From Methanospirillum lacunae (lineage in GTDB: Archaea; Halobacteriota; Methanomicrobia; Methanomicrobiales; Methanospirillaceae): DNA of 64,000 bases. The position numbers and the translations under genes were made by a program. A model generated the notes under the pieces. That model was given only the letters and a program-made list of their open reading frames with translations. It did no database searches and was not told where the DNA came from. Within the stretch, counting starts at the first letter, position 1; every line of letters begins with the position of its first letter. The stretch covers positions 62,001 to 126,000 of the forward strand of contig NZ_QGMY01000003.1 in assembly GCF_003173355.1 (NCBI RefSeq), given 5' to 3'. Below, in pieces: positions 12,013 through 26,989 of this stretch.

Positions 12013-12759
12013 TCAATTTTCCTGGGTCACACCAAGTTTTCGGTCATCAGGTGTATTTCTCATTGAGGACAACTCCTCTTCAAGTGCCTCCCTGATTACA
12101 TCTCTATACGCAGGCAGTTTATCAGGATCAATAAAAATCCGGAACGGAGCCCTGATACTCCACGGTTGGTCAACTCCTTTGCGGACCCCTACATAATGAT
12201 TATTCAAAAATAACCTGATCTCTGTCTTCCCATCTTTGATCAGGACAACCTGCCTGATATCAAGAAATGGAGCAAATAGTTTTCCAAGGATAGCTCCCCG
12301 GACAAGAAGTTCGTACAGAGGCTTTCCAAATGTAATAGATTCCAAAATCCTTCGGTGTATAGATACCCGGTATCTGAAGTATATCCTTCCCCAGATTTCT
12401 CCTCTGACTGATGATGATACATCAAACCTCCGCTTCCGGATTACTTTTCCGATAATTGACTGACGATCAATCGAATACGAATCAGGACTTCGGTTATTAT
12501 CACCAGCAGTCTGAACCTGTTCTCCCTGGATTTCAATCACCCGGTGGATAATATACCTATGACCCCCTGGTTCAGGATAGACGATCACGTCTCCATGTTT
12601 TATTTGAGAAAATCGGTCAAATATTACCTTATCACCATCGATGAATGTTGGGTACATACTCATCCCTGAATATACGATCTCATCTCCATTGATCTCTGGC
12701 AGATTATCCAGATAATATCCCACATTTAACTGGGTGATTTGAGGGGGATTGTGGTTCAT
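12013..12759 (-). CDS. S26B (Sec11-type) signal-peptidase-like protease without membrane anchor
   Basis: The 248-residue protein carries the catalytic boxes of archaeal/ER signal peptidase: Ser34 in YSGMSMYP, His72 in IIHRVIEI and Asp87 in TAGDNNR. The Ser-His-Asp set, rather than Ser-Lys, places it in the S26B group. Unlike true signal peptidases it has no clear N-terminal or C-terminal membrane helix, and a basic C-terminal domain of about 130 residues follows the protease fold. It borders the radical-SAM island, so it may be the leader peptidase for the precursors, which have no GG motif and whose exporter has no C39 domain. That role is inferred from position. A housekeeping or S24-like regulatory function is the alternative. 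The ATG at 12759 has GTGAGAA upstream. Confidence 0.7.
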   Translation of the reverse strand: MNHNPPQITQLNVGYYLDNLPEINGDEIVYSGMSMYPTFIDGDKVIFDRFSQIKHGDVIVYPEPGGHRYIIHRVIEIQGEQVQTAGDNNRSPDSYSIDRQSIIGKVIRKRRFDVSSSVRGEIWGRIYFRYRVSIHRRILESITFGKPLYELLVRGAILGKLFAPFLDIRQVVLIKDGKTEIRLFLNNHYVGVRKGVDQPWSIRAPFRIFIDPDKLPAYRDVIREALEEELSSMRNTPDDRKLGVTQEN

Positions 12760-12954
12760 CGTTTCTCACTTTATGTACTATATGAACGAAGACGCGAATA
12801 GGACAGGATGAGATTTCTCACATGGTATCCGGCTGAATATTGCCAGCAGAAATAAGTACACTACTCTCTTTCCGTTTTTAATGGATTTTGATTATTAATA
12901 CATTAATTATTATTTCCCTCGGTATTGAGTTATAACTATTATAAAAATATCTTC

Positions 12955-13588
12955 TACTCAATTATATCCCGGAACCTGCCGGTTTGTATATTACTGAGGA
13001 GATTGACCGGGATATCCTGACCAGAGGAGATACATTATCAAAACTAAGAGTTCTCATCTCGTTCTGAAGTTCCTTATCCGTGAGGCAGAACTGGATTCCA
13101 GGTTGCCTGAATGAATTTGTCATTCAGACTGCTGTCTGTGATTGAGGAAATGGTTTTATAGTATCCTCATAAGCCTGGTTGAGAATGCAGATCGCTTTCA
13201 GTTGATATGCGAGGGTCGGATTCCAGAAAAATCCCTCTTCTCCGGCTCCGATTTTCCTTATGGTTGTATGCATTGAGACGCAATGTCCCTCGGATCCCTC
13301 CAGAATGAAAAGGTAATTTTCATCACCGGGATCTGACCAGGGGGGATGAAACCACCGGGATGATGTTGGTTTTCCTCCTCCAATGGATACTGCTAACAGA
13401 ACCGCCTGCCCATCGCGGACCTGGGTTGCAACCTGAAGATGAAGGCAATTCTCACAAAGAAGAATGGTATTACTACAAACCATCAATATTTTTCTCCAAA
13501 TGGAGGTGTTTAGTATTATCTGTAGGCATATCAGGAATTCCTATCTCAATCAATTTGTTTCTGATTAAATGCTGTTATCCCATACATA
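12955..13588 (-). pseudogene. Decayed second copy of the HprK-like kinase gene
   Basis: The minus strand is clearly similar along this whole stretch to the intact kinase at 16566-17417, covering roughly its residues 64 to the C-terminus. Shared segments include GEEGFFWNPTLAYQLKAICI and, in the 3' part, the bases for a degraded EMRTLSF region. The frame is broken by several indels, and only about 120 codons in the middle stay open. The P-loop has changed from SSGGGKST to SIGGGKPTS, which would abolish nucleotide binding. The 5' end is fused to a remnant of the preceding radical SAM gene. It is a dead relic of a duplicated kinase/radical-SAM pair. Confidence 0.8.
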
Positions 13589-13589
13589 C

Positions 13590-13690
13590 AGGCCGACATA
13601 GACATTATTCACATGACACCGGGAAAAGATCAATTAAGATCCTTGAACAGATACTCACGGATCTGGTTTATTAGGTCTGTTTTTTTCAGA
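13590..13690 (-). pseudogene. Remnant of the SPASM end of radical SAM gene 2
   Basis: About 100 bp align base for base, with scattered mismatches, to 17567-17670 of the intact radical SAM gene; the blocks GACACCGGGAA and CACGGATCT are shared. It lies directly upstream, in the minus-strand sense, of the kinase relic. The gene order of the intact locus is therefore kept, but about 350 bp of the junction is deleted. Confidence 0.65.
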
Positions 13691-13778
13691 TGTCTTCGGT
13701 GGTGTCTTAAGGGAGGGAGATCTGGGAATATGGGATTAGGAAAGTAACCGGTTATCTCACCGTGAACATTACAAGAGG

Positions 13779-13990
13779 CTACGAGAACCTTCCTGCGTCA
13801 CTACTGCCATCAACACAATAATTCGCAGTTCCACCCGGATTACAATCAAAAGATACACGGTACCAGTAACTCCATTACCACACATCGCATTCTGTCCAGA
13901 CATAGTATCCCCAACAAAACATGTTCTTGACAGGAATGTAGGTCTGAATAAAATGATATACGTGTCTTTTTCTTCCAGATGGTAACAAAT
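13779..13990 (-). pseudogene. Remnant of a Cys-repeat precursor gene
   Basis: Reading the minus strand with one frameshift near 13865 gives RTCFVGDTMSGQNAMCGNG, then DCNPGGTANYC and VDGSSDAGRFS followed by TAG at 13781-13779. The C-x2-G spacing and the terminal serine match the intact precursors of the island. No leader remains: the 5' side runs into the sequence that forms the upstream module of the plus-strand copies. It therefore looks like the 3' half of a precursor truncated by a rearrangement. Confidence 0.5.
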
Positions 13991-14587
13991 GAGGGTGTCC
14001 AGTGAGATCTTCACACTGGACAACCTCAACGCCAATCTCTGTATCAATTCGATAATTAGTAAATCCGTCTCTCCATATATTTTGAAAGGATTCGAACATG
14101 ACTGTTGATAGCCTCAAGCGTGTGAACACAAATTGACTCGGTGCATATCACAGGTATGTTTCTTCTGGTCGTCGCATTCCTGCATAGTACCCTCACCGAT
14201 TATCACCCTAGTGTCCGGTATCTCACCGTGATCCGTAAGAGAGTCGTTTCGCAACTCTCAAAACCTGAATAGGAAAGATTCTCATTTGAGATAGGAAATC
14301 ACCACCCGGGGGCTGTCCGCCCTCTCGATTATCCTTCTCGCTGGGAGCATCTTTTTCTATCGAAACGAGTCTTGAATGGATTCTTCCCGCTGGGAGCATC
14401 TTTTTCTATCGAAACGAGTCTTGAATGGATTCTTCCCGGATATAAGATCTTATCATTATAAACGGCACCGTCTCTGTCCAGGTCGAATTATCGTTCAGGA
14501 AAACAAGCGGGGAAGGTATTGGTACAGGCATTAACACGAGAGAGACGACTCCTTACCATAATGAAAAATAATTGAGATGAGTAACAG
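13936..14587 (+). repeat. Upstream module A of the plus-strand precursors
   Basis: About 650 bp of non-coding DNA before precursor 1 recurs with 80-90% similarity by eye before precursor 2 (15239-15686) and precursor 7 (about 23915-24379). Shared blocks include GTGAACACAAATTGA, GGTATCTCACCGTG, GCAACTCTC and the last 40 bp with GAGATGAGTAACAG directly before the ATG. The final GAGATGAG serves as ribosome site. Open frames inside it are not conserved between copies, so I treat it as promoter/leader or structured-RNA sequence. Confidence 0.7.
14339..14436 (+). repeat. 49-bp direct tandem repeat, two copies
   Basis: Two adjacent identical copies of a 49-bp unit starting CGCTGGGAGCATCTTTTTCT occupy 14339-14387 and 14388-14436. 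The corresponding stretch before precursor 7 (around 24180-24230) has only one, diverged copy. It sits about 150 bp upstream of the precursor 1 start, so it may change promoter or leader spacing. Confidence 0.85.
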
Positions 14588-14977
14588 ATGGGAAAGAAAC
14601 AGTATATTATACCAAAAATTATCGATCTCTCCATCGAGACCATAACCGGGGTCGGGGCGAGATATTGTACGTACGGGGGAAATATTGGTACCTCTACTTG
14701 TCATCAGGGTCAGGGTGCAACAGGCACATGTATTGGTGGGAATGGTGCTTCTGCAGGCTGTTCCTCTGGAAATCTTCCCTATCAGTCAGGAGTATTATGT
14801 TGGAGTGGAAGTGCAGCGGGAACAATCTGTGAAGCTGGGAATTCTGCCAGTGGGACATTTGGTAAGTGTTTCAGTGGAAGTTCTGCTACTGGGTACTGTC
14901 TCGGCGGGTCGGCTGCTCTTTCACCAAGCGTCCTTTGCACTTCTGGTAACAGTCAGGTTTCCCTCGATAGTTCATAG
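14588..14977 (+). CDS. Cys-repeat precursor peptide 1
   Basis: The 129-residue product has the leader MGKKQYIIPKIIDLSIETIT, then GVGAR, then nine cysteines spaced mostly 10-13 residues apart in units such as CHQGQGATGT, CIGGNGASAG and CEAGNSASG. It ends LDSS. It is rich in Gly, Ser, Ala, Thr and Cys and nearly devoid of charge after the leader. It has no Sec signal peptide. It is one of seven full-length related copies in the island and lies near two radical SAM/SPASM genes and a PqqD-like gene, so I read it as their ribosomal substrate. GAGATGAG lies 8 nt before the ATG. The alternative is an unmodified Cys-rich structural protein. Confidence 0.75.
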   Translation: MGKKQYIIPKIIDLSIETITGVGARYCTYGGNIGTSTCHQGQGATGTCIGGNGASAGCSSGNLPYQSGVLCWSGSAAGTICEAGNSASGTFGKCFSGSSATGYCLGGSAALSPSVLCTSGNSQVSLDSS

Positions 14978-15238
14978 TCTCTCATGGTTCACTCCCCCAT
15001 TTTAGACTACAGCATACCACCCTTCCTTTTTTACAGCAATAATTTCCACGAAAAACTTCTTTGAAATGGTACAGAGAACCATTCGCATATTGTGCCTTCA
15101 TGTATTTCTTCTTCAATGGTTGCAATTTATGGGATTCTACGTATTGCAGTAAAATTTCCTTGTTTATGCATCCTATCGGACTACCAGAGTAGTCTCAATA
15201 TGGAGATATCAAGCCTAAAATTGACCCTCTGTGTGGCG

Positions 15239-15686
15239 GGAATATATACCTGGATAAAGTGATATATGTGTCCTTTTCTTTCAGATGGTAACGAATGAGG
15301 ATGTCCAGTGAGATTCTTAACACTGGACAACCTCAACACGAATCCCTGTATCAATTCGGTAATTATAAAATCCGTCTCTCCTTATATTTGTAAAGGATTA
15401 GAACATGACTGTTGATACCATCAAGCGTGTGTACACAAATTGACTCGGTGCATATCACAGGTATGTTTCTTCTGGCCGTCGCATTCCTGTATAGTACACA
15501 CAAGATTACCACCCCACCAGTACCCGGTATCCCACCGTGATCCTTAAGTTAGTCGTTTCGTAACTCTCACTGAACAGGAAAGATACTCATGCGAGATGGA
15601 AAACAAGCGGAAAAGGTAGCGGTACAGACGCAAAGACAGGAGAGACGACTTCTTGCATATTGAAAAAATGTTGAGATGAGTAACAG
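15239..15686 (+). repeat. Upstream module B of the plus-strand precursors
   Basis: This is the second copy of the non-coding module that precedes precursor 1. It is shorter because about 170 bp (the part holding the 49-bp repeat and the CCCGGGGGCTGTCC block) is missing between GAGATGGAAA and ACAAGCGG. The 5' part from AGATGGTAACGAATGAGG onward and the 3' part ending GAGATGAGTAACAG are retained. Confidence 0.7.
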
Positions 15687-16100
15687 ATGGGAAAGAAACA
15701 GTATATTGCACCAAAAATTATCGATCTCTCGATTGAGACATTAACCGGGGTCGGGGCGGGAAGTTGCAATACAGGGGGAGGAGTTACCTCTTCTTGTACT
15801 ACTCATGGGACTAGTGCAAACACTGCATGTGATCTCGGGTATGGTGCTTCAGCAAGTTGTGCAGGTGGAGAGTTACCCTTTCAAACGGGAGAATATTGTG
15901 GTCTTGGGAATTCAGCGGGACAATGTAGGAGTGGGAATAATGCCACTCGTGCAGATGGAGAGTGTCATAGTGGAAATACTGCTACTGGGGTGTGTGATCC
16001 CGTTGGAGGTACTCCGAACCCTTCGAATTTTTGCCTTAGTGGACCAACTAATGCGAATTGCTACTCAGGAGGCGCTCAGGCTCCACACGGGAGTTCATAA
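15687..16100 (+). CDS. Cys-repeat precursor peptide 2
   Basis: The 137-residue paralogue of precursor 1 has leader MGKKQYIAPKIIDLSIETLT then GVGAG. Ten cysteines follow in units such as CDLGYGASAS, CRSGNNATRADGE and CHSGNTATGV, and it ends PHGSS. The leader is almost identical to that of precursor 1 while the repeats differ at most variable positions, as expected if the leader is the enzyme recognition part and the repeats are the varied product part. The same ribosome site and start context are used. It is followed by a pyrimidine/T-rich stretch (CCCCCCTTTTTTCTG) that may end transcription. Confidence 0.75.
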   Translation: MGKKQYIAPKIIDLSIETLTGVGAGSCNTGGGVTSSCTTHGTSANTACDLGYGASASCAGGELPFQTGEYCGLGNSAGQCRSGNNATRADGECHSGNTATGVCDPVGGTPNPSNFCLSGPTNANCYSGGAQAPHGSS

Positions 16101-16565
16101 TCACTCATGGTTCCACCCCGTTTCCGACAATAGTATACTTACCCCCCTTTTTTCTGAACAATCCTGCATCGATTCAACATTTGTTCAGGACACCCCTTTT
16201 TGTGACATTCATTGACAAGGCAAGAACGAAATCAGATTCACCGGTTTATTCATGCATCAACTCTCTCCTACCGGGTGCCACAGGGCCAGAGTACGACGGA
16301 TATTGTTCATGAATTACTGAGACAGGGCACACAACTACCGACTCATGTTTATTACTTGTATACCAATGGCATATGAGCAGCAGCTTTTATCAAGCGTTTC
16401 CATTTTACAATATGAATAATTATATTTATCACTTTGATTCTGAAGAGATTACAAAGATTTTAGCGAAAAATTTGTGCTATGCGGATGCAGACTCATCACG
16501 AGAAACCCAGTCTGAAAACCATCACTTCAGAGACTCGTAATACAAAATAGATACAGGTATCCCTG
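16101..16565. other. Intergenic region with no recognised gene
   Basis: 465 bp separate precursor 2 (plus strand) from the converging kinase gene. The first 60 bp resemble the 3' flanks of precursors 1 and 7 and carry a T6 run. A 42-codon ATG frame at 16412-16540 has no ribosome site and no recognisable similarity. I see no RNA gene or repeat. Confidence 0.5.
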
Positions 16566-17417
16566 TTATCTGAATAGTTTCTGTTCAATAACTTCCCAGA
16601 ACCTGCCGGTCAACGTAGCATTGAGGAGATAGACCGGGATCTTCCTGACCAAGGTACATGCATTCGCAAAACTAAGAGTTCTCATCTCGTTCTGAAGTTC
16701 TTTATCCATAAGGTGGAACTGGTTCCAGGTTGCCTGACTGAACGAATTGGTCATACAGACTGCTGCTTGGGATTGAGGAAATGATTCTATGGTATCCTCA
16801 TCAGCCTGTTTGAGAATGCAGATCGCTTTCAGTGGATATGCAAGGGTCGGATTCCAGAAAAGTCCCTCTTGTCCGGCTGCAATTTTACTTGCGGTTGGAA
16901 GCACCGAGACGAGATATCCTCCGGAGCCATCAGGAATGACCAGACAATTCTCATCGCCGGGTGCTGACCAGGGTGAAGGAACCCGCCGGGCTGATGTGGA
17001 TTTTCCTCCTCCGCTGGATGCGGCTAACAGAACCGCCTGTCCATCGCGGACCAGGGTTGCAGCATGAAGAAGAAGGCAATGCTCACACAGAAGTATGGCA
17101 CTAATACCAACCATCAGTAATTTTACCCCTGATGAAAAATGTTCGGGGCAATCTGCGGCCGAATCCGGAATTCCGATATCTATCAATTTTTGTTTCTGGT
17201 TGAGAGCTATCTTCCCATATACACTGCCAAAAACCTTCCAGTCTTCAGAACGGACGGGATCTTCAGGTAAAAGCGGAGCAACTGATATCAGTCCTGAGTT
17301 GAGAATCTCTCCCGGAGAGAGGGTGAGGAGAGGAACAATGGTTTCCAGCCACCAGAACCGGTCAGGATCGGCAGTGATCGTCCAGTGGTGTTCCTGTGGC
17401 AATGAAAGGGTATACAT
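16566..17417 (-). CDS. HPr-kinase-like P-loop protein of the RiPP island
   Basis: The 283-residue protein has a P-loop SSGGGKST at about residues 134-141, preceded by LLLHAATLVRDGQAVLLAA, and a downstream PGDENCLVI acidic motif. This is the layout of the HprK/PEP-carboxykinase-like kinases found in RiPP clusters. Family members in paeninodin-type lasso clusters (PadeK, ThcoK) phosphorylate the hydroxyl of the precursor's C-terminal serine, and all complete precursors here end in Ser. The gene follows radical SAM gene 2 on the same strand. ATG at 17417 is preferred; an in-frame TTG at 17438 would add seven residues but neither has a clear ribosome site. A decayed duplicate lies at 12955-13588. 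The substrate is inferred. Confidence 0.7.
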   Translation of the reverse strand: MYTLSLPQEHHWTITADPDRFWWLETIVPLLTLSPGEILNSGLISVAPLLPEDPVRSEDWKVFGSVYGKIALNQKQKLIDIGIPDSAADCPEHFSSGVKLLMVGISAILLCEHCLLLHAATLVRDGQAVLLAASSGGGKSTSARRVPSPWSAPGDENCLVIPDGSGGYLVSVLPTASKIAAGQEGLFWNPTLAYPLKAICILKQADEDTIESFPQSQAAVCMTNSFSQATWNQFHLMDKELQNEMRTLSFANACTLVRKIPVYLLNATLTGRFWEVIEQKLFR

Positions 17418-17442
17418 GAAAAATGATCTTTTGTCCAAACAT

Positions 17443-18546
17443 TCAGTGTACTTGTCCTTCAGCCAGCCGAGTCATCGGAAATATACCGGCCTTTAGTGCA
17501 TCTTCACAGAATTTATGGCCGGCAAGGAGATCTTTTTCCACATAGTAATTATTTGCAACACACTGACCGATACAGACATTCTTCACCAGACACCGGGAAC
17601 AGACCCCTTTCAGATCCTTTGGAAGATGTTCACGGATCTCGTTTAATGCGTCTGCTTTCTCCCAGATACCTTTGATCTGATCCCTGGATGCATGACCGAA
17701 ACAGAGTTCAGAAACACTAGTTCCGATACCACAGAGGGCATAGGTTCCATCTGAAAGGACTCCGAGTATGGAGAAGATACCGCATCGTCCACAGTTCCCC
17801 TGCGGTCCATACAGCGATGAGAGCGATCTGAATGCAAAGGGAAGATTCGTCATCAACGGGATCTTCAGTTCTTTTTGTAGCTCGTTCTGCACCCACCGGG
17901 AGAGTTCAATCTGTTCCTGCACTGTGACCGTTGCTCCTTCAGCTTCCATCGCTTCGCCTCGTGCAGTCGGGGTGACAAAATTGTATTTAACAGAGCCAGC
18001 TCCCATCTGCTGCGCATATTTTGCCAGATCTGCCATTTCACCTTTGTTTCTTCCGGCAACAGCCATGATCACCTGAGGATGGATACCGGTTTCTACGAGG
18101 GTTTTCACTCCCTGGCTTGCCCGGTCAAAGGATCCCCTAACTCCCCGCATCCATTCATGAGATTCACGGTTTCCGTCGATACTAATGGAAATAAATGAAC
18201 CGGGACAGGATTTTATCAGGTCTGCAATATGCGGAGTTACCGCAACTCCGTTTGACTCGATGGTAAGATTGAGATGCTGATCCCTGATGAACCGGAGCAT
18301 AGGGATGATGTCAGGGTGGATGAGAGGTTCTCCTCCGGTGAGTTTCACTCCCGAGAGGCCGATTTCTTTTGCTTCAGTAACGATCTTTTTGAAGAGATCG
18401 AATGGGAGAGCTTTCTGAGACCGGTCAGAGTGTTCAAAGGTCGGTGCGATCCAGCAGTGACGGCAGGCCATGTTGCAGTCACCGGTGAGATAAAAGTACA
18501 ACGTCCCAAGAGGAGGAACGGTTTTTGGTATTGTCTCTTCAGTCAT
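17443..18546 (-). CDS. Radical SAM/SPASM peptide-modifying enzyme 2 (ScmF-like)
   Basis: The 367-residue protein has the radical SAM cluster motif C24-x3-C28-x2-C31 (GDCNMACRHCW), the GGEP motif in KLTGGEPLIHP, and a C-terminal SPASM region with cysteines in GNCGRCGIF, YALCGIG and GVCSRCLVKNVCIGQC for auxiliary Fe-S clusters. Such enzymes form thioether or C-C bonds, epimerise or trim residues on ribosomal peptides. The sequence style resembles ScmF of the SynChlorMet cassette as I remember it; this was not checked. An AT-rich segment at 18595-18640 may be its promoter. The HprK-like gene follows it. Confidence 0.85.
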   Translation of the reverse strand: MTEETIPKTVPPLGTLYFYLTGDCNMACRHCWIAPTFEHSDRSQKALPFDLFKKIVTEAKEIGLSGVKLTGGEPLIHPDIIPMLRFIRDQHLNLTIESNGVAVTPHIADLIKSCPGSFISISIDGNRESHEWMRGVRGSFDRASQGVKTLVETGIHPQVIMAVAGRNKGEMADLAKYAQQMGAGSVKYNFVTPTARGEAMEAEGATVTVQEQIELSRWVQNELQKELKIPLMTNLPFAFRSLSSLYGPQGNCGRCGIFSILGVLSDGTYALCGIGTSVSELCFGHASRDQIKGIWEKADALNEIREHLPKDLKGVCSRCLVKNVCIGQCVANNYYVEKDLLAGHKFCEDALKAGIFPMTRLAEGQVH

Positions 18547-18660
18547 AGGAATCGGGTATCATCAGTATTCAAAATCTGAAATATTTCATAACGCTGATAA
18601 ATTATTATTTATTCAATAATTTTGCAATTTTTATGGGATGGAGGTTGTTTTGAAGAGAAA

Positions 18661-19770
18661 TCACGGAATACTGACGATTCGTCCTCCCTCTGCAAGGAAC
18701 TTCTTTAGACATCCACCTGGACTCGGGACATAAACATCACCGGTTCGTGAATACCCGTCTGCAGGACAATTTCCGGTGCAGGTCATCCGGTACCCACAAT
18801 CTGCGCAATCCGGAAATGTCGAGAGAGGGATGGTATACCGTTGCCGGAGCCGGTTGAATTCGGGATGGTTCTGCCATACATCAAGGAGTTTATGCTGATT
18901 GATCTTCCCGAGTTCAATGTGGGAAAGCATCCCGCAGGGAACATAGGTCCCGTCCGGCCGAACTGCCATCTTACTCCACATACATCCGCATCCGGTCAGA
19001 AAACCACGTCCGGGGATGGTTCGACCCTCAATCCGTGCCTGTTCCATCTCCTGGAAATTTTTCCCTTGTGCAAGTGGACCGGCAGATGCAGTAATCCGGT
19101 TGTTGTACCGTTTCGCAAGTTTGAGGATCTTTTCCATCGCAATGCAGGTCTCTGCCGGGGTAAGGCTCACTTCTTCCTCGTTTTCCCGGGCCAGTCCCTG
19201 ATAACTGGCACTATTGGTAGAAATGGATCCCATTCCCATCTCATCCAGGAGCAGATGAGCAATGTTTTCAAGATCATTCAGGTTATACCGGTGAATGGTA
19301 ACCCGTGATGTAACCCACACTCCGGCATCCTGCAGGGTTTTAATTCCCCGGATTGCCCCATCAAATGCCCCGGTACCCCGAAGACGATCATGTACGGCTG
19401 TACAGGATCCATCAACCGATATCTGGACATAGTTACATCGTCCTGTCGATGCGATGAACGTTGCAATATCCGGGGTGATCAGACCACCATTGGAGAGGAC
19501 GGCAAACCGCATCTTGTTTGCGACAATCCCTTCGATCATCTCCCTGAGATCTTCCTTGATGAACGGTTCTCCTCCGCCGATGGTGATATCCATAATCCCG
19601 GCATTCCCGCATTCTTCAAAGAAGGGTCGCCACCCGGATGCAGGGATTTCTCCCCCGGTATCTGCAGGGCTTGTCCGGTGAAAGCAGTACTTGCATTTCA
19701 GGTTGCACCGGGAGGTGATATCGATGTCAATGGACTTGGGAGTTTTCATCACCCTGCGGTTTTCGGTCAT
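18661..19770 (-). CDS. Radical SAM/SPASM peptide-modifying enzyme 1 (ScmE-like)
   Basis: The 369-residue protein has C22-x3-C26-x2-C29 (SRCNLKCKYCF), GGGEPF at about residue 66, and a SPASM tail with CGCMW, VPCGML, CADCGYRMTCTGNC and a final CLKKF, enough cysteines for two auxiliary clusters. It lies 9 nt downstream of the PqqD-like gene, which follows a precursor gene, so precursor, recognition protein and enzyme form one transcription unit. Truncated copies of its first 20-30 codons occur at 20650-20711 and 21629-21718. The ATG at 19770 is used; a second ATG at codon 8 (MKTPKSIDID), preceded by AGGGTG, is equally possible. Confidence 0.87.
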   Translation of the reverse strand: MTENRRVMKTPKSIDIDITSRCNLKCKYCFHRTSPADTGGEIPASGWRPFFEECGNAGIMDITIGGGEPFIKEDLREMIEGIVANKMRFAVLSNGGLITPDIATFIASTGRCNYVQISVDGSCTAVHDRLRGTGAFDGAIRGIKTLQDAGVWVTSRVTIHRYNLNDLENIAHLLLDEMGMGSISTNSASYQGLARENEEEVSLTPAETCIAMEKILKLAKRYNNRITASAGPLAQGKNFQEMEQARIEGRTIPGRGFLTGCGCMWSKMAVRPDGTYVPCGMLSHIELGKINQHKLLDVWQNHPEFNRLRQRYTIPLSTFPDCADCGYRMTCTGNCPADGYSRTGDVYVPSPGGCLKKFLAEGGRIVSIP

Positions 19771-19779
19771 AATCTTCCG

Positions 19780-20058
19780 TCATCTAACCTGAGCGTATCC
19801 GAGTCGTACAATCTGATCCAGGAAATTTTTGATGTCTTCAGTCAGATCGTCAGGCAGGTTTTCGTATTCATCCTGAATCTGTGCAATGATTCCGTTCAGA
19901 TCTTTGCCTTCATTCAGAGATTTCCAAATGGTAACCCCGGTAGGAGTCAGGCCAACGGCTTTTCCGGTATCAGGATTGAACAGGAGTGCCCAGTCATCAA
20001 ACTCTTCGCGGAGTGAGATCTGAGATCCTGGTGTTGGGATTGAAATCTGGTTAGTCAT
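19780..20058 (-). CDS. PqqD-like RiPP recognition protein
   Basis: The 92-residue protein matches PqqD/RRE proteins: an N-terminal beta region (DDWALLFNPDTGKAVGLTP), then helices with GVTIWKSLNEGKDLNGIIAQ and a C-terminal DQIVRLGYAQ. Such domains bind the precursor leader and present it to the radical SAM enzyme. The ATG at 20058 overlaps the TGA of precursor 3 (CATGA), coupling the two. A longer in-frame reading upstream lies inside the precursor gene and is rejected. Two further copies occur upstream, one broken and one fused to a radical SAM fragment. Confidence 0.85.
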   Translation of the reverse strand: MTNQISIPTPGSQISLREEFDDWALLFNPDTGKAVGLTPTGVTIWKSLNEGKDLNGIIAQIQDEYENLPDDLTEDIKNFLDQIVRLGYAQVR

Positions 20059-20465
20059 GATGAAAAATTTTCGTGTTGTGCATTGCCTGAACGGCATAAA
20101 AGAAGGTCTGCATTACCAGAATCACATTTAGGTTTGTCTTGCCCTACTCCGACGTAACATGTTGAGGGTGAACCCCCAAAACCACAGAAACTCCGGTTGG
20201 CAGATCCACCAAGATTACAAGTTCCCTGTAGATTTGAATTCCCAGGAGTACACATGGTGGCGGTATGGTTGGGAATATAACCATCAGCGCATGCACCAGT
20301 TGCAGCACCACCAAAATTAGTACAACTGGTTTGTGCTCCACTTCTGGTACTACACCCGGAACTACTAAAATGGAATCCATCTTGGCATAGTGTCGCCCCG
20401 ATCCCGGTGACCCCTTCTATACTCAGATCGATTACAAGTGGCTTTTCATGTAATTTCTTCACCAT
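20055..20465 (-). CDS. Cys-repeat precursor peptide 3
   Basis: The 136-residue protein has leader MVKKLHEKPLVIDLSIEGVT then GIGA. Ten cysteines follow in units such as CTNFGGAATGA, CNLGGSANRSF and CDSGNADLLL, and it ends HENFSS. The leader shares VIDLSIEG-TG-G with the plus-strand copies, but the first residues differ (MVKK rather than MGKK), defining a second leader subfamily shared with precursors 4-6. It heads the transcription unit precursor, PqqD, radical SAM 1. CAGGG lies 8 nt before the ATG, and a TATA-like GAGTATATCT lies about 56 nt upstream. Confidence 0.78.
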   Translation of the reverse strand: MVKKLHEKPLVIDLSIEGVTGIGATLCQDGFHFSSSGCSTRSGAQTSCTNFGGAATGACADGYIPNHTATMCTPGNSNLQGTCNLGGSANRSFCGFGGSPSTCYVGVGQDKPKCDSGNADLLLCRSGNAQHENFSS

Positions 20466-20520
20466 GTTAAACCCTGATAATTAACCTCTATTAAGGACTG
20501 TTTTCAAAATCAGTCAGAAC

Positions 20521-20530
20521 AGATATACTC
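20521..20530 (-). promoter_or_regulatory. TATA-like element of precursor 3
   Basis: GAGTATATCT on the minus strand lies about 56 nt before the precursor 3 ATG. The same string is at the same distance before precursor 5 (AGTATATCAA), while the dead precursor 4 has GAGTCTATCAG in its place. Confidence 0.45.
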
Positions 20531-20613
20531 TACGTAATAATTATTTAGGCACGTAGGAATAATGATATCGATTTGATTTTCGATACCATGGTAATGAGGA
20601 TCGCGTATGATTA

Positions 20614-20649
20614 CGTATGGAGATCTGATTTACAGATCTCTCCCATACG
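20614..20649. repeat. 14-bp inverted repeat at a duplication junction
   Basis: The arms CGTATGG+AGATCTG (20614-20627) and CAGATCT+CCATACG (20633-20639 and 20643-20649) enclose a 5-nt loop, with a 3-nt bulge on the right side. It sits exactly where the radical SAM 5' fragment of tandem unit 2 ends and the upstream region of precursor 3 begins. Unit 3 lacks it. Confidence 0.7.
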
Positions 20650-20711
20650 AAATAATATTTCAGGTTGCACCGTGAGGTGATATCGATATCAATGGACTTC
20701 AGGGTTTTCAT
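20650..20711 (-). pseudogene. 5' fragment of radical SAM gene 1, tandem unit 2
   Basis: From an ATG at 20711 the minus strand reads MKTLKSIDIDITSRCNLK, the N-terminus of radical SAM enzyme 1. It diverges immediately after the first cysteine of the CxxxCxxC motif and runs into the inverted repeat. It is a truncated duplicate without function. Confidence 0.75.
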
Positions 20712-20750
20712 GACCTAGCGGTTTTCGGTTGTAATCCTCCATCATCCGGC

Positions 20751-20996
20751 TTAAGCGTACTCGAGTCGTACAATCTGATCAAAGAAGTTTTTGATATCTT
20801 CAGTCAGATCCTCAGGAATGTTCTCGTATTCATCCTGAATCGCTGCAATGATTCCCTTCAGATCTTTGCCTTCATTCAGAGATTTCCAGATGGTAACCTC
20901 TGTCGGGGTCAGGGTTGAACAGGAGTGTCCAGTCATCAAACTCTTCGCGGAGTGAGATCTGAGAACCTGGTGTTGGGATCGAAATCTGTTAGTCAT
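20751..20996 (-). pseudogene. Frameshifted PqqD-like gene, tandem unit 2
   Basis: The minus strand starts MTNRFRSQHQV, where the intact gene reads MTNQISIPTP; one base is missing in the fifth codon region. About 25 bp are deleted around the GKAVGLTP region, between two TCAGG words. The rest (EVTIWKSLNEGKDLKGI to FFDQIVRLEYA) is intact but ends one codon after YA. The two lesions bring the frame back, but the central beta region is scrambled. Confidence 0.8.
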
Positions 20997-21024
20997 GATG
21001 AAAAATGTCCGGGTTGTGCATTGC

Positions 21025-21399
21025 CTAAATTGCATACAAAGATTCTGCAGCACCAGCATTACAAGAACTGGTGGTTCGTCCTCCTCCGGTGTAGCATATT
21101 GAGGGTCCACCCCCACTACTGCAGATACTTTGGCTCGCAGATCCCCCCGTTTGACATTATCCCTGTAGATTTGAATGCCCAGAAACACACATGGCGGCGT
21201 TATGGTTGGGAGCAAAACCATTAGTGTATGCACCAGTTACCATACCACCATCATTACAACTGCTTTGTGCACCCCTTCCGATATTACACGCGGAACTATT
21301 AACCTTTGGTCCAGATTGACATTCTGTCGCCCCGATCCCGGTGACGCCTTCTATACTCAGATCTATTACAAGTGGCTTTCCATATGATTTCTTTACAAT
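21025..21399 (-). pseudogene. Precursor 4: start codon lost and internal stop
   Basis: The minus strand encodes VKKSYGKPLVIDLSIEGVT then GIGA and a set of Cys units, but the ATG of its relatives is ATT here (21399-21397). An in-frame TAA follows SNLQG, where precursor 3 has ACT. After the stop the Cys pattern continues (CQTGGSASQS, CSSGGGPSI) and ends AESLYAI rather than in serine. Together with the broken PqqD downstream this shows that the whole tandem unit is dead. Confidence 0.85.
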
Positions 21400-21628
21400 A
21401 TTAAACTCCGGTTATCCCCATATGATGGGATAACGGTTTAAAATCAGTCAGAACTGATAGACTCAAGTTATTGTTATTCGAATAAGTAAGAATAATGATA
21501 TCAAATTAATTTTTCAAATATGGTAATTACGATCATTACGTATGATTACGAATGGGGTTTTGATTTGCAGATCTCCCATCTTTGTAAATCATTATGGATT
21601 ATCTGATTCAACCTCCATGTACCAAAAA

Positions 21629-22024
21629 TCATGCCCGATTTGTCAAGTGAAAGCAGTTCTTGCATTTCAGGTTGCACCGGGAGGTGATATCGATATCAAT
21701 GGACTTTGGGGTTTTCATGACGTGGTTCTCGGTTATGATCTTGTATGATCCAGCCTGGGCGTATCCGAGCCATACAACCTGATCACAGAAATTTTTGATA
21801 TCTTCAGTCAGATCAGCAGGGAGGCTCTCGTATTCATCCTGAATCAGTGCAATGATTCCATTCAGATCTTTGCCTTCATTCAGATATTTCCAGATGGTAA
21901 CTCCGGTAGGAGTCAGGCCAACGGCCTTTCCGGTATCAGGGTTGAACAGGAGTGCCCAGTCATCATACTCTTCGCGGAGTGAGATATGAGATTCTGGTGT
22001 TGGGATTGAAATCTGGTTAGTCAT
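21629..22024 (-). CDS. PqqD-like protein fused to a radical SAM N-terminal fragment, tandem unit 3
   Basis: From the ATG at 22024 the frame encodes a full PqqD-like domain (MTNQISIPTPESHISLREEY through DQVVWLGYAQ). The stop codon present in the unit 1 copy has changed (TGA to TCA), so the frame runs on through GSYKIITENHV into MKTPKSIDIDITSRCNLKC and KNCFHLTNRA before a stop. The product has about 131 residues. The PqqD part looks intact and may still bind leaders; the radical SAM part has the three cluster cysteines but no barrel. A start at 22027 is equally possible and overlaps the precursor 5 stop. It could be a functional RRE with a short tail or an early pseudogene. Confidence 0.65.
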   Translation of the reverse strand: MTNQISIPTPESHISLREEYDDWALLFNPDTGKAVGLTPTGVTIWKYLNEGKDLNGIIALIQDEYESLPADLTEDIKNFCDQVVWLGYAQAGSYKIITENHVMKTPKSIDIDITSRCNLKCKNCFHLTNRA

Positions 22025-22434
22025 CATGAAAAATGTTGGAGTTGTCCATTGCCAGAACGGCATAAAAGAGAATCTGCATTACCATCAGAATTACACATAG
22101 GTTTGTCTTGCCCTACTCCGGTATTACATATTGAGGGTGAACCCCCAAAATTGCACAAACTCCGGTTCGCAGATGCCCCACGACTACAAGCTCCCTGTAG
22201 ATTTAAATCCCCAAACCAACACATGGTGGTTGTATTGTTGGGAGTATCACCATCAGCGCATGTACCAGTTACAGCACTACCAAAATTCGTACAACTGGTT
22301 TGTGCTCCACTTCCGGTACTACACACGGAACTACTAACATGTAATCCATGATTACATTCTGTCGCCCCGATCCCGGTAGCGCCTTCTATACTCAGATCTA
22401 TTACAAGTGGCTTTCCATACGTTTTTTTTACCAT
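22024..22434 (-). CDS. Cys-repeat precursor peptide 5
   Basis: The 136-residue precursor closely related to precursor 3 has leader MVKKTYGKPLVIDLSIEGAT then GIGA. Ten cysteines follow in units such as CTNFGSAVTGT, CADGDTPNNTTTM and CSRGASANRSL, and it ends LQHFS. CGGAG lies 6-7 nt before the ATG. Its TGA overlaps the ATG of the PqqD-like gene (ATGATGA), keeping the coupling seen in unit 1. All parts needed for expression look intact. Confidence 0.75.
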   Translation of the reverse strand: MVKKTYGKPLVIDLSIEGATGIGATECNHGLHVSSSVCSTGSGAQTSCTNFGSAVTGTCADGDTPNNTTTMCWFGDLNLQGACSRGASANRSLCNFGGSPSICNTGVGQDKPMCNSDGNADSLLCRSGNGQLQHFS

Positions 22435-22490
22435 ATTAAACTCCGATTATTACCGGATAATGAGATGAACGGTTTCAAAATCAACCAGAA

Positions 22491-22500
22491 TTGATATACT
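22491..22500 (-). promoter_or_regulatory. TATA-like element of precursor 5
   Basis: AGTATATCAA on the minus strand lies 57 nt before the ATG, the same spacing as in precursor 3. The flanking region up to about 22600 is homologous to the upstream regions of precursors 3 and 4. Confidence 0.45.
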
Positions 22501-22600
22501 TTAAGTTATGACTATTCGAGCACGTAGGAATAATGATATCGATTTGATTTTCGATTTTGATATGGTAATTACGATCATCGCGTCTGATTACTAATGGATT

Positions 22601-23212
22601 CCGATTTGAATAGTATCGGATCTGAATTTTGTAGTGTACCCCTTCTTCACTAATCAGGCTTTAGAAGGATGGGAAAGGGTAACCCATCTTGTCTATTCAA
22701 CTAACGTGTGGCTGGTTTTCACGACGAACAGGAGGTATCGCAATGTACGAGATATGTTCAATTTCGCTTACACTCGAGGACATCTCGGATAAAGAATAAA
22801 AAATTCTTTGTCAAGCGACTACTTCCACGAATCTCAAAAGCAGTGAAAATAGCATGTTCCATCCCTGGAAGATGGGGAGGGATTAATCTCTCCTTGCTAT
22901 TTGACGATCTGATGCTGCGAAACTGTGGGCACGGTTATTATTAACGTTGTTAATAGATATGGATCTTTTTATTATGAAAGATAACTATATAACACTGATC
23001 TCTATTGCCACCTGAAATAAGACCTTTAGTTGTATTGACGGCCTGAATAGTTACAAAAACAATTTACGTACCAAGGGTCGGAATGTTTGACAGAAATCAA
23101 TCTCATTCTCTCTGGACAGGAAAGGGAGTTAAAGAAAAGCAGATAGAAAAAAGAAGGTACCGCTTGGACCCTCATCGAATCAATCGTATTGATCTGATTC
23201 ACAACGCCTTTG
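22601..23212. other. Region between precursors 5 and 6 with no recognised gene
   Basis: About 600 bp without a supported gene. A 78-codon plus-strand frame at 22708-22944 shows no family resemblance that I recognise and no good ribosome site. It could be a worn fragment of a mobile element, but I cannot show this. The part next to precursor 6 is AT-rich 3' flank. Confidence 0.4.
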
Positions 23213-23647
23213 TCAGCTTGATGATATGAAGGGCTGTTGAGTACTACCATTATTGTTACAGAACCCGGCACCAGAACCATTATTACATGTGCCATTAGTC
23301 TGAGAATATTTTACAGAGGAACCTGATCCACAGTAAAGGGATGGAGAATTTCCTGAAAAACATTCACTAAAAGCCCCTGATGCATTAGCACCATTAACCC
23401 AACATGCTCCTGCTGCATCTGATCCAGTAGCATTACACACAACTGCATTGTAATTAGGACTCGTTCCGTCATTACATGATGATGATGCCCATCCTCCGAC
23501 ATGGCAAGTATTCACATACCCACCACCATCGCCGCAGTCTGAATCGCTAAAACTGGGTCCTGTATCGCATAAAGAACCACCAATTCCAGTCACACCTTCT
23601 ATGCTTAAATCGATTACTATTGGAGGGACATACACCTTTTTTACCAT
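23213..23647 (-). CDS. Cys-repeat precursor peptide 6
   Basis: The 144-residue precursor, the longest of the set, has leader MVKKVYVPPIVIDLSIEGVT then GIGG. Ten cysteines follow in units such as CHVGGWASSS, CNDGTSPNYNAVV and CWVNGANASGAFSE, and it ends PFISSS. It stands alone: no PqqD or radical SAM fragment follows it, so its modification would depend on enzymes made elsewhere in the island. CGGAAG lies about 8 nt before the ATG, and a good TATA box lies at 23700-23712. Confidence 0.75.
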   Translation of the reverse strand: MVKKVYVPPIVIDLSIEGVTGIGGSLCDTGPSFSDSDCGDGGGYVNTCHVGGWASSSCNDGTSPNYNAVVCNATGSDAAGACWVNGANASGAFSECFSGNSPSLYCGSGSSVKYSQTNGTCNNGSGAGFCNNNGSTQQPFISSS

Positions 23648-23699
23648 GATTTTCTTCCGTTCGCTTGGAAATTGATCCGAACAATCTGTTTAACTTGTG

Positions 23700-23712
23700 A
23701 AATAAATATAAC
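23700..23712 (-). promoter_or_regulatory. TATA box of precursor 6
   Basis: GTTATATTTATT on the minus strand lies about 55-60 nt before the ATG. This is a good match to the archaeal TATA consensus and leaves a leader of about 30 nt. It is unrelated in sequence to the promoters of precursors 3 and 5. Confidence 0.5.
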
Positions 23713-23914
23713 AGATGCTCTTTTTTTATAGATAGAAAAATTTCTTTCGGTTTTATCCTGATATCTCATTGAGGTTGTCCATTGTAGAGAATCAAAGGCC
23801 AAATTATCTTCCGTTTTGGCTAATTTCAAGAAAGATCTATATGCAAAATCCTTCATTGGACAGCCTCTCTTCAATCCCCGTATCTAACAGGTAATGTTAA
23901 AATCCCCCCACTAA

Positions 23915-24379
23915 ATATCTTGAATAGGTTCGAACGTGACTGCTGATACATCAAGAGCGTGAACACAAATTGAATCGCTGTATATCGCAGTTATGTTTAT
24001 TCTGGTTGTCGCATTCCTGCATACTACCCACACCAGATAACCCCCCCACCGGTACCCGGTATCTCACCGTGCTCCTTGAGAGAGCAGTTCCGCAACTCTC
24101 AAAAACCTGAACGGGAAAGATTCTCATGTGAGATGGAAAACCAACACCCGGGGGCTGTCCACCCTCCCAATCATCCTTCTCGCTGGGAGCAGCCTTTTCT
24201 ATCGTATCGGGTCTGGAATGGAACCGTCCCAGATAAAGGAAATTTTTATCATTATGAACGGCACTTTCTTGGTCGGATTCTCCTTCTGGGAAAGCGAGTG
24301 AGGAAGGTATTGGTACAGGTACGAAGACAGGAGAGACGACTCCTTACCGTAATGAAAAAATAATTGAGATGAGTAACAG
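23915..24379 (+). repeat. Upstream module C of the plus-strand precursors
   Basis: This is the third copy of the non-coding module seen before precursors 1 and 2. It shares GGTTCGAACGTGACTG, GTGAACACAAATTGA, CACCCGGGGGCTGTCC and the terminal GAGATGAGTAACAG. It is about 8.5 kb from the other two, so the module travels together with its precursor gene. Confidence 0.7.
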
Positions 24380-24792
24380 ATGGGAAAGAAACAGTATATT
24401 GCACAAAAATTATCGATCTCTCTTTAGAGACAATAACCGGGGTCGGGGCGGGAAATTGCCTTACTGGGAGAGACTTTGGTACCGCTTCTTGTACAACTGA
24501 GGGTCAAGGTGCAACCAGCACATGCAATCACGGGGATGCTGTTTCAGCAAGCTGTTCCACTGGAAACCTCCCCCATCAGTCGGGAGAAATGTGTTATCCT
24601 GGGAGTAATGCGGGAACATTCTGTGAGGATGGAGGATCTGCCAGTGGGGCATTTGGAAGGTGTACCCCTGGAAGTGCAGCTACTGGGATGTGTGTGGATG
24701 GCAATTTTGCGACCGCCAGCTTTTGTGATACGGGATCAGGTAAGGGTCTTTGCTCTAATGGAAATGATCAGGTTTCCTACGGGAATTCATAA
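24380..24792 (+). pseudogene. Precursor 7: single-base deletion in the leader
   Basis: The start context and first eight codons (MGKKQYIA) match precursors 1 and 2. One C is missing from GCACCAAAAATT, so the frame leaves the leader and stops at TAG seven codons later. In the other frame everything downstream is perfectly kept: IIDLSLETIT, GVGAGN, ten cysteines (CNHGDAVSAS, CEDGGSASGAFGR, CVDGNFATASF) and the end VSYGNS. With no other damage this is a very recent mutation, a phase-variable or slipped site next to an A5 run, or a sequencing error. Confidence 0.8.
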
Positions 24793-25003
24793 TCTCTCAT
24801 AGTTCCCCCCAATTTTCTATTGCAGTATGCCAACTTTTCTTTGTCCTGAAAAACCCGGTCATGTAACACCAAGTTTTTCATGGCATCATCACTAGCGGCT
24901 AGAGATAAAACGTGATTAATAAAATAATTCGCTAAACATCAATTCCTGTTGACTTATATTCTGTACTATCAATATCTATCGACACTGATATGGTGATCTC
25001 TTC

Positions 25004-26872
25004 ATGACCTCCCAAAGCGGCCCGATCGGTAAAATTCCCTTGCGAGGTCGACTTCGTCTTTTGAGAGATTCTCTGACCTATGTACCTCCTGGCAAAGATG
25101 GAGAATTTAAATATCGCGACATACTCTATTTTACCCGGTATCTCATCCCATTAAAATATGCCATCATTTCATCGCTCATCCTCACTTTCATCTCCTCACT
25201 CCTCGGGACCGCCCTCCCGCTCTCCGGGAAATGGATCATCGACTATATCTTTATGCATCAGAGTATAGAGCCGGTTCTGGATAGACTCTCGGCTCATCAT
25301 CTGGCATTTCTCGTCCCATTTGCCTCACAAGTCTTCTCATCATTGCCACTTCTGATCGGAACACTTGCGGTAGTTTCAATTGTTAAATACCTCATCGGAA
25401 ACGAGCTGTCACTCATCAACTATCGGATCAATACCGAGTATGGGTACCGGGTGAAGATGGCAGTCTTTACCCATGTGATGAAATACCCGGTCTCATTCTT
25501 CAAATCCACCAGGAGCGGATATCTTCTCGCCAGAATCAGTTCAGATACGGCGGGTCTCTCAGGAATCTCGGGAAGTTTTCTTCAGAACATTATCACTGCC
25601 GGCACATCGCTTTGTGTGACTGCAACAGTCCTTTCTGCCTTGTCTCTTCCCCTGACGCTCTTTGTAATAATTACTGTCCCGGTATCGGTTATCATCAGTT
25701 ACTGGGTTGTCAGGTTCACCAGATCCTATAGTATCAGGATGCGGGAGTCCGGCCTACAGATGGCAGCTGACGGACAGGACCTCTTCAGTTCAATCGACCT
25801 TATCAAAACCCATGCAGCAGAAGAGCGGGAACTTAACCGGTACATGAAGAGAACCCTCGATAATATCTCCCTAAACATCGCAAGCATGCTCTTTGGTCAG
25901 GTAACCGGTGGCGTCCAGATGGCATTCACCAATATTGTCAGGCTTATCGTTATGCTCTATGGAGGAAGCCTCGTCCTCTCGAACCAGATGTCCATCGGAT
26001 CATATACTGCATTCCTTGCAATGTACCCACAGCTTACCGGTGCCATCTCAACGTTCCTGCAGATGCCACTTAATCTGCAGGGAACCGCTCTTGCTGCCGG
26101 AAGAGTAAAAGAACTCCTTGACATGACCACCGAGTATGAACATGACGATCCGAAAAAGACCCTGCTCTATCCTGATATCAGAACAAACGGGCACATTATC
26201 GTAGATTGTGTTTCATTTTCCTATGATCCTGATACTCCGGTGCTGAAAGATGTCAGCCTGGAGATACAACCCGGCGACCGAATCGGACTCATCGGTCAGA
26301 CAGGGGCAGGAAAGACCACTTTTATCAACTTACTTCTCAAATTTTATCGCCCTAATCAGGGAAAGATACTCATCGACGATTATGATTATGCTGATCTGAA
26401 CCCAGCCTGGATTAGAAATCAGATAGCGGTCGTCTCACAGGATCTGATGCTCTTTCATGATACGGTGATGAACAATATCAGGTATAGCAGACCTGAAGCG
26501 GATGATGAGGAAGTCATGAGAGCAGCACAATCGGCAGGCATTCATGATGAAATTATCAGGCTCCAAAACGGGTATGATACAATAGTTGGAGAAAGAGGAA
26601 GCAAACTTTCAGGCGGGCAGAAACAACGGATCGCTATCGCACGTGCCTTTCTGCGTAATGCCCAGATTGTTATTCTGGATGAACCAACCGCTCACCTTGA
26701 TATCGAAACTGAAGAACTACTAATCAGGGAGTTTATTAGTGTCTGTTCTGGAAGAACCATGGTTGTTATCACTCACCGGGAGAGTCTGCTCCGGTTGGTG
26801 GATCGGGTATATCGGTTGAAGAAAGGAAAGATACACGAAGAAAAGAGGGATGCATCATTAATCAGTGCATAG
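25004..26872 (+). CDS. ABC exporter (membrane domain fused to ATPase)
   Basis: The 622-residue protein of the MsbA/lasso-D type has six membrane helices in residues about 50-330. The nucleotide-binding domain follows, with Walker A GQTGAGKTT at about 430-438, signature LSGGQKQR at about 534, Walker B IVILDEPTAHLD and the H-loop THRE. It works as a dimer. It has no N-terminal C39 peptidase domain, so leader removal needs another protease. It lies 210 bp after precursor 7 and is followed by the nucleotidyltransferase, matching its use as exporter of the modified peptides. CTTATATTCTG at 24954-24964 is a plausible TATA box. Confidence 0.9.
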   Translation: MTSQSGPIGKIPLRGRLRLLRDSLTYVPPGKDGEFKYRDILYFTRYLIPLKYAIISSLILTFISSLLGTALPLSGKWIIDYIFMHQSIEPVLDRLSAHHLAFLVPFASQVFSSLPLLIGTLAVVSIVKYLIGNELSLINYRINTEYGYRVKMAVFTHVMKYPVSFFKSTRSGYLLARISSDTAGLSGISGSFLQNIITAGTSLCVTATVLSALSLPLTLFVIITVPVSVIISYWVVRFTRSYSIRMRESGLQMAADGQDLFSSIDLIKTHAAEERELNRYMKRTLDNISLNIASMLFGQVTGGVQMAFTNIVRLIVMLYGGSLVLSNQMSIGSYTAFLAMYPQLTGAISTFLQMPLNLQGTALAAGRVKELLDMTTEYEHDDPKKTLLYPDIRTNGHIIVDCVSFSYDPDTPVLKDVSLEIQPGDRIGLIGQTGAGKTTFINLLLKFYRPNQGKILIDDYDYADLNPAWIRNQIAVVSQDLMLFHDTVMNNIRYSRPEADDEEVMRAAQSAGIHDEIIRLQNGYDTIVGERGSKLSGGQKQRIAIARAFLRNAQIVILDEPTAHLDIETEELLIREFISVCSGRTMVVITHRESLLRLVDRVYRLKKGKIHEEKRDASLISA

Positions 26873-26989
26873 AGACGTTGTCGAAATATCACGTTTAAAT
26901 ATTGAATCTGTAACCTGATTTTATGAATTTATATAAAAGGTTCGTTAATGATGCTTGAATTTTCCCTCATATTAAACCGGTGACTTAAT

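Follow-up and report, generated by a model that had tools for sequence, protein, structure and literature searches.

The DNA analyzed here is a 64,000-nucleotide stretch of the Methanospirillum lacunae genome (GCF_003173355.1, contig NZ_QGMY01000003.1, positions 62,001–126,000 of the forward strand), which we call the window and whose numbering is used for all coordinates given without a locus name. Flanked by an A-type ATP synthase operon and a phosphoglycerate kinase gene, as read from translations and the list of open reading frames (ORFs), it contains a cluster (12013–28219) that combines two radical SAM enzymes and their presumed partners with a family of long cysteine-ladder proteins (Table 1). 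It is well supported that these proteins are a real family of precursors of ribosomally synthesized and post-translationally modified peptides (RiPPs), which belongs to a named but uncharacterized gene cassette, SynChlorMet, and represents a long variant, present in several copies, that shows signs of positive selection.

The family has eight members between 13.8 and 24.8 kb, five of them intact ORFs and three broken. The intact precursors are 129–144 amino acids long, have 9–10 Cys each, and all share the pattern MxKKx[Y/H]xxPx(I/V)IDLSIE(G/T)xTG(V/I)G(A/G) at residues 1–24. Within this leader, (I/V)IDLSIE(G/T)xTG(V/I)G(A/G) covers residues 11–24 in all five, and a [Y/H]xxPx(I/V) motif at residues 6–11 lies just N-terminal to the IDLSIE block. 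Beyond residue 24 the sequences diverge, except for the Cys ladder. The 49 Cys of the five intact cores follow each other at intervals of 9–15 residues (mean 11.0, s.d. 1.46), whereas shuffled cores gave a mean s.d. of 9.7 and a minimum of 6.4 (500 shuffles). Forty of these 49 Cys stand in a C-x2-G motif, compared with a shuffled mean of 8.6 (s.d. 2.6, maximum 17; 2000 shuffles), and the fuller repeat reads C-x2-G-x2-(A/P/V). An earlier note, made without database searches, had described a constant leader and a variable Cys-ladder core beside radical SAM and PqqD genes, which our analysis bears out; its figure of 9–10 C-x2-G repeats holds for the Cys of each core but is slightly generous for the motif, which occurs about eight times.

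Copies 4 and 7, which the earlier note had called broken, do carry disabling changes (lost start and internal TAA in one, one-base leader deletion in the other). A further, eighth copy was recovered with a precursor from L041, a syntenic locus in another genome of the genus (G007) that has eight intact precursors. The start of one more L041 precursor, with the leader MQKKKYLQPMIIDLSIEAVTGIGA, was seen at L041:19920–19997, and a genome search places this gene at G007:C1:806920–807369. The precursor family is absent from most other genomes of the genus. Elsewhere in the M. lacunae genome no further copies were found beyond one 47-codon leader-like remnant on contig 2, a short, interrupted stretch away from the cluster (544014–544151; precursor profile, E 8.5e-5). 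About 300 bp of intergenic DNA 5′ of the plus-strand precursors (14014–14380, 15321–15604, 23872–24228) match the same L041 stretches at 79–89% and close with an almost identical AATTGAGATGAGTAACAG ahead of the ATG. These stretches are perhaps a common promoter or 5′ region, or a recombination unit; Rfam gave no match in them, and no known RNA elements in the cluster.

Profile matches place the precursors within the SynChlorMet cassette (NCBIfam TIGR04248–TIGR04252; ScmA, ScmC–ScmF), since ScmC, ScmE, and ScmF score above their NCBIfam cut-offs and SynChlorMet ScmD is the best family by E-value for the PqqD-type protein, though below its cut-off. The modeled structure of ScmC has a PEPCK/HprK fold (AlphaFold2 and Foldseek, pLDDT 84), and its residues H125, K146, and D162 are invariant. 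The S26 peptidase keeps the Ser, His, and Asp motif residues found across its family. Extra ScmD copies are present, one of them trailed by the first 30 ScmE codons, which suggests that the minus-strand precursors multiplied by duplication of a precursor–ScmD–ScmE unit followed by decay. No phage families were detected, and no plasmid-borne relatives of precursor 1 were found.

Table 1. Precursor copies and cassette genes of the M. lacunae cluster, in window coordinates.
Feature	Coordinates	Strand	Details
S26 archaeal-type signal peptidase I, candidate leader peptidase	12013–12759	−	TIGR02228 above cut-off; Pfam S26/S24
Second ScmC, decayed fragment	13124–13486	−	–
Eighth precursor copy, decayed by frameshifts	about 13782–14129	−	tblastn with the L041 5472–5864 precursor as query; outside 14588–24792
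Precursor 1	14588–14977	+	129 aa, 9 Cys
Precursor 2	15687–16100	+	137 aa, 10 Cys
ScmC, HprK-like kinase	16566–17438	−	TIGR04249, 149.8 bits (cut-off 125)
ScmF, radical SAM/SPASM enzyme	17443–18546	−	TIGR04251, 449 bits (cut-off 400); Pfam Radical_SAM and SPASM
ScmE, radical SAM/SPASM enzyme	18661–19770	−	TIGR04250, 491.9 bits (cut-off 400); Pfam Radical_SAM and SPASM
ScmD, PqqD-type RiPP recognition element (RRE)	19780–20097	−	TIGR04248, E 9.9e-23, 80.2 bits (cut-off 100), best family by far; Pfam PqqD
Precursor 3	20055–20465	−	136 aa, 10 Cys
ScmD second copy, decayed	20751–21233	−	–
Precursor copy 4, broken	21031–21399	−	ATT replaces start, internal TAA, one ladder Cys changed to Tyr
ScmD third copy, then about 30 codons of ScmE start	21629–22063	−	apparent remnant of duplicated precursor–ScmD–ScmE unit
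Precursor 5	22024–22434	−	136 aa, 10 Cys
Precursor 6	23213–23647	−	144 aa, 10 Cys; conserved core, omega 0.15
Precursor copy 7, broken	24380–24792	+	one-base deletion in leader, remaining frame open
MsbA-type ABC exporter, no C39 peptidase domain	25004–26872	+	profile matches
NTP_transf_5 nucleotidyltransferase-like tailoring enzyme	26990–28219	+	PF14907, E 8.1e-58

The earlier note had presented the precursors as a new family, which is too strong, as NCBIfam already names both the cassette and a precursor, ScmA, annotated in the same gene neighborhood. Compared with the 49 positions of the ScmA model, the window precursors are two to three times longer, with 9–10 Cys and many paralogues. This model (TIGR04252) misses them (E up to 0.1) and finds nothing in the genome (E up to 1). 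It does match the short precursors of loci L038 and L075 weakly, and these are linked to the window precursors by profile comparison: the alignment of window precursors with the short precursors of other loci has an hhalign probability of 98.3 (E 1.1e-14), a match that rests partly on compositionally simple repeats, while the leader aligns as well. No relatives of the precursors were found in Pfam, PHROG, or PDB; the best sequence match to a solved structure was a lectin (E 0.051). The earlier suggestion of a beta-solenoid-like rod found no support, AlphaFold2 giving a mean pLDDT of 35 and a pTM of 0.18 for the unmodified chain, which may not be informative; the ordered crosslinks that the earlier note offered as the other option are plausible.

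A GTDB-wide scan for ScmE revealed 30 ScmE-like loci in about ten phyla. Judging by their titles, they come from Nitrospirae, Deltaproteobacteria, Aminicenantes, Anaerolineae and other Chloroflexi, Chlorobiaceae, Lentisphaeria/Victivallales, Brocadiia, Acidobacteria, Omnitrophota, Fermentibacteraceae, and methanogens. Partners and precursors were counted at 36 distinct ScmE loci, several of them on short contigs, and at 50 control loci around other radical SAM genes; the DNA scanned for precursor ORFs amounted to 0.51 Mb and 0.79 Mb, respectively. ORFs with an N-terminal [Y/W]xxP and C-x2-G repeats are present at 20 of the 36 ScmE loci under a strict rule, and at more under looser inspection. 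There are 35 such ORFs at ScmE loci compared with three unrelated-looking ones at control loci, and when the leader is not required, 32 ORFs with at least four C-x2-G repeats compared with none. By the earlier note's own criterion, matches solely in genomes without radical SAM/PqqD neighbors would have counted against its reading, and the 36 ScmE loci gave the opposite result. The partner genes are similarly concentrated: ScmD was found at 34 ScmE loci, ScmF at 28, ScmC at 24, the exporter at 19, the S26 peptidase at 18, and NTP_transf_5 at 15, whereas the exporter is the sole partner seen at control loci (2/50; S26 0/50, NTP_transf_5 0/50). Natural fusions, two of kinase and S26 peptidase (L042:14699–16237, L045:5788–7347) and one of S26 peptidase and NTP_transf_5 (L050:8196–9743), tie the tailoring enzymes together. 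The G007 genome also has a second ScmD–ScmE–ScmF set (L040, G007:C1:1362001–1382000), with no ScmC, S26, NTP_transf_5, or exporter gene nearby and with one small YxxP ORF containing Cys (L040:14501–14713).

Comparison of the window with L041 showed that the cassette enzymes are conserved (omega 0.10 for ScmE, 0.20 for ScmC), with ScmE and ScmF being the most conserved proteins among those compared. The precursor leaders behave alike (dN/dS 0.08–0.35 in five disjoint pairs). The cores of three of these five pairs have omega values of 2.55, 2.36, and 2.29 (p 0.012, 0.015, and 0.043, uncorrected), and an L041 paralogue pair reaches 3.8 (p 1e-4). None of the nine or ten Cys per precursor has been lost in any of the five pairs, whereas 39–46% of the other core residues have changed in the three fast pairs. 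The diversified substrate family proposed in the earlier note thus agrees with dN/dS values above 1 in several cores. These data suggest that the loops between fixed Cys and Gly are under positive selection, pointing to a role in biological conflict or recognition. Although A is included in 70–74% of variable core columns, a resident diversity-generating retroelement was excluded as the source of variation, with no reverse transcriptase (PF00078) in the 3.74-Mb genome, which is 99.9% complete.

No paper on SynChlorMet or on Methanospirillum RiPPs was found in the library searched, and three described systems offer the closest parallels. The first is the pathway of linear polyphosphorylated peptides (LPP; Popov et al, 2026, PMC13381572), in which the kinase LppK phosphorylates one Ser, the SipW-like peptidase LppS removes the leader with the help of an RRE, and a YxxP leader motif is required for RRE binding. 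Like LPP, the window combines a discrete RRE, an HprK-like kinase, an archaeal-type SpI/S26 peptidase, an NTP transferase, and an MsbA-like exporter in one cluster, and its precursors share the YxxP leader and variable core of LPP precursors, which are 35–200 amino acids long. The earlier note had missed this set of genes, the YxxP motif of the RRE-binding type, and the eighth precursor copy. Unlike the window cassette, the described LPP core set is without radical SAM enzymes and is Bacillota-restricted, and its leader motif is YxxPxVLxHQxIxFETxxS, whereas the window has [Y/H]xxPx(I/V)(I/V)xL without HQxIxFETxxS (PMC13381572). The second parallel is streptosactin, a sactipeptide in which a SPASM radical SAM enzyme forms un-nested Cys31–Gly34 and Cys25–Ser28 alpha-thioethers (PMC8172795). 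Both systems pair a SPASM radical SAM maturase with an adjacent Cys-containing precursor and show the C-x2-G donor/acceptor spacing (also C-x2-S in streptosactin), but the 14-mer of streptosactin holds two rings, compared with 9–10 putative rings in about 110 residues, plus an RRE, a kinase, and an exporter, in the window. Third, paeninodin and pseudomycoidin lasso peptides (PMC9266682) likewise feature an HprK-like kinase, an NTP transferase homologue, a Y/WxxP leader, and a C-terminal Ser, the last of these being shared by the precursors of the window's genus. Unlike lasso peptide clusters, the region 12013–28219 has no macrolactam synthetase or B2 protease among its large ORFs, according to a gene inventory with no dedicated profile search; it has radical SAM enzymes in their place.

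The leader/core architecture, the ladder, its linkage to the cassette, the HprK fold, and the selection signal are shown computationally. We consider it fairly probable that the precursors are RiPP substrates of the SynChlorMet cassette, whose Cys are crosslinked one by one before phosphorylation, trimming, and export. In such a pathway, ScmD would bind the constant YxxP leader and offer the core to ScmE and ScmF for repeated modification along its length. A thioether would probably link each Cys to a residue close by, with the alpha carbon of Gly+3 as the most likely partner, yielding up to 9–10 small un-nested rings. ScmC would then phosphorylate a serine, possibly the C-terminal one in this genus, and the NTP_transf_5 enzyme might decorate the phosphate, for which PsmN is a precedent (PMC9266682). 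The S26 peptidase would cut after TG(V/I)G(A/G), within the run of small residues that precedes the first Cys, and the ABC transporter would export the product. A small-x-(G/A/S) motif immediately before the first Cys is present in 38 of 40 precursors, as a cut of the signal-peptidase type would require, but it is a weak hint because composition favors such a motif. For RRE binding, phosphorylation, leader cleavage, and export, this scheme leans on the precedents named above.

The ring chemistry and the biological role are inferred more weakly than these steps. Cys–Gly rings are our leading idea for the radical chemistry because Gly occupies Cys+3 at 82% of Cys in the window and 88% in other ScmE loci (138 of 157 Cys in C-x2-G, compared with 32 when shuffled), and because streptosactin provides a precedent for un-nested alpha-thioethers. 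As Gly has no side chain, it could, if it is the acceptor, form only an alpha-carbon thioether. The strongest competing explanation also takes the proteins as RiPP precursors, but assigns the radical SAM enzymes products different from Cys–Gly alpha-thioethers, such as ranthipeptide-like thioethers to Ala, Val, or Ser at Cys+5/+6, epimerization, or C–C bonds, with Cys serving in metal binding or disulfides. Cys+6, the second favored position (A/P/V in about 60–70%), could be the acceptor, the two distinct radical SAM enzymes may have separate tasks, and homology gives no verdict on the chemistry. We nevertheless regard this alternative as rather unlikely, given that Gly+3 is the sole near-invariant partner in the window and at other loci alike, with streptosactin as a direct precedent for exactly this spacing.

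Several observations weigh against the pathway of crosslinking, phosphorylation, and export proposed here. Outside the cassette, ScmE and ScmF have a mixed set of nearest named relatives (heme enzymes, WgkB, GeoRSP, StsB), which leaves homology uninformative about the chemistry, and neither a mass spectrum nor an enzyme assay was found for the SynChlorMet cassette. The window ScmC has E163 where relatives have Asp, giving Asp-Glu (162–163) instead of the Asp-Asp of relatives and of the His-Lys-Asp-Asp lasso kinases (PMC9266682). All 13 precursors from the window and the closely related genome end in Ser, but only 1 of 27 elsewhere does, although ScmC occurs there too; the C-terminal Ser was therefore rejected as a universal kinase site of the family and kept as a genus-level prediction. 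Selection is significant in some pairs alone, one core pair has an omega of 0.9, and the core of precursor 6 is strongly conserved. Finally, the precursor copies look mosaic, and gene conversion therefore probably contributes to their variation. In the ScmC alignment, Asp-Glu at 162–163 is confined to the window and L041.

The kinase could also be the main modifier, making an LPP-type phosphopeptide for which the Cys repeats and radical SAM enzymes are secondary decoration. The full LPP core set is indeed present, but ScmE, ScmF, and the ladder are more constant across the 36 loci than the tailoring genes (ScmF 28, as against ScmC 24, S26 18, and NTP_transf_5 15), and ScmE and ScmF are the best conserved of the proteins compared, which makes this alternative very improbable; a purely linear phosphopeptide product is likewise unlikely because two radical SAM genes are present. 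That the precursors are ordinary disulfide-rich secreted or surface proteins placed beside radical SAM genes by chance would suit their Cys-rich, simple Ser/Thr/Gly-rich composition, but is hard to credit for proteins with no strongly hydrophobic N-terminal signal stretch in the window precursors, an odd core Cys number in 18 of 40 family members, no relative in Pfam, PHROG, or PDB, and a leader motif and cross-phylum ScmE association that are absent around other radical SAM genes.

The enzyme set thus already had names in databases, but not so the peptides, their rapid evolution, or the link to the LPP pathway. Reading the proteins as RiPP substrates of the cassette gives a named, unstudied system an anatomy, with predicted leader and cut site and a precursor family that can be recognized in many phyla, and connects it to a pathway with published biochemistry. 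It also provides evidence of positive selection on an archaeal RiPP core, pointing to conflict or recognition, and a natural substrate series, with 3 to 14 Cys, for probing the number of crosslinks that a single radical SAM pair can make per chain. More speculatively, and with considerable doubt about the proposal as a whole, these peptides may form a RiPP class found in archaea and in many phyla of bacteria, whose pathway joins LPP-like phosphopeptide synthesis to a pair of radical SAM enzymes building strings of up to ten un-nested Cys–Gly thioether rings, the positively selected loops in Methanospirillum making them fast-evolving conflict or recognition molecules. A few kilobases past the cluster, the window contains an ORF (31584–32531) that resembles CRISPR Cas1 by sequence and is a candidate for this protein.

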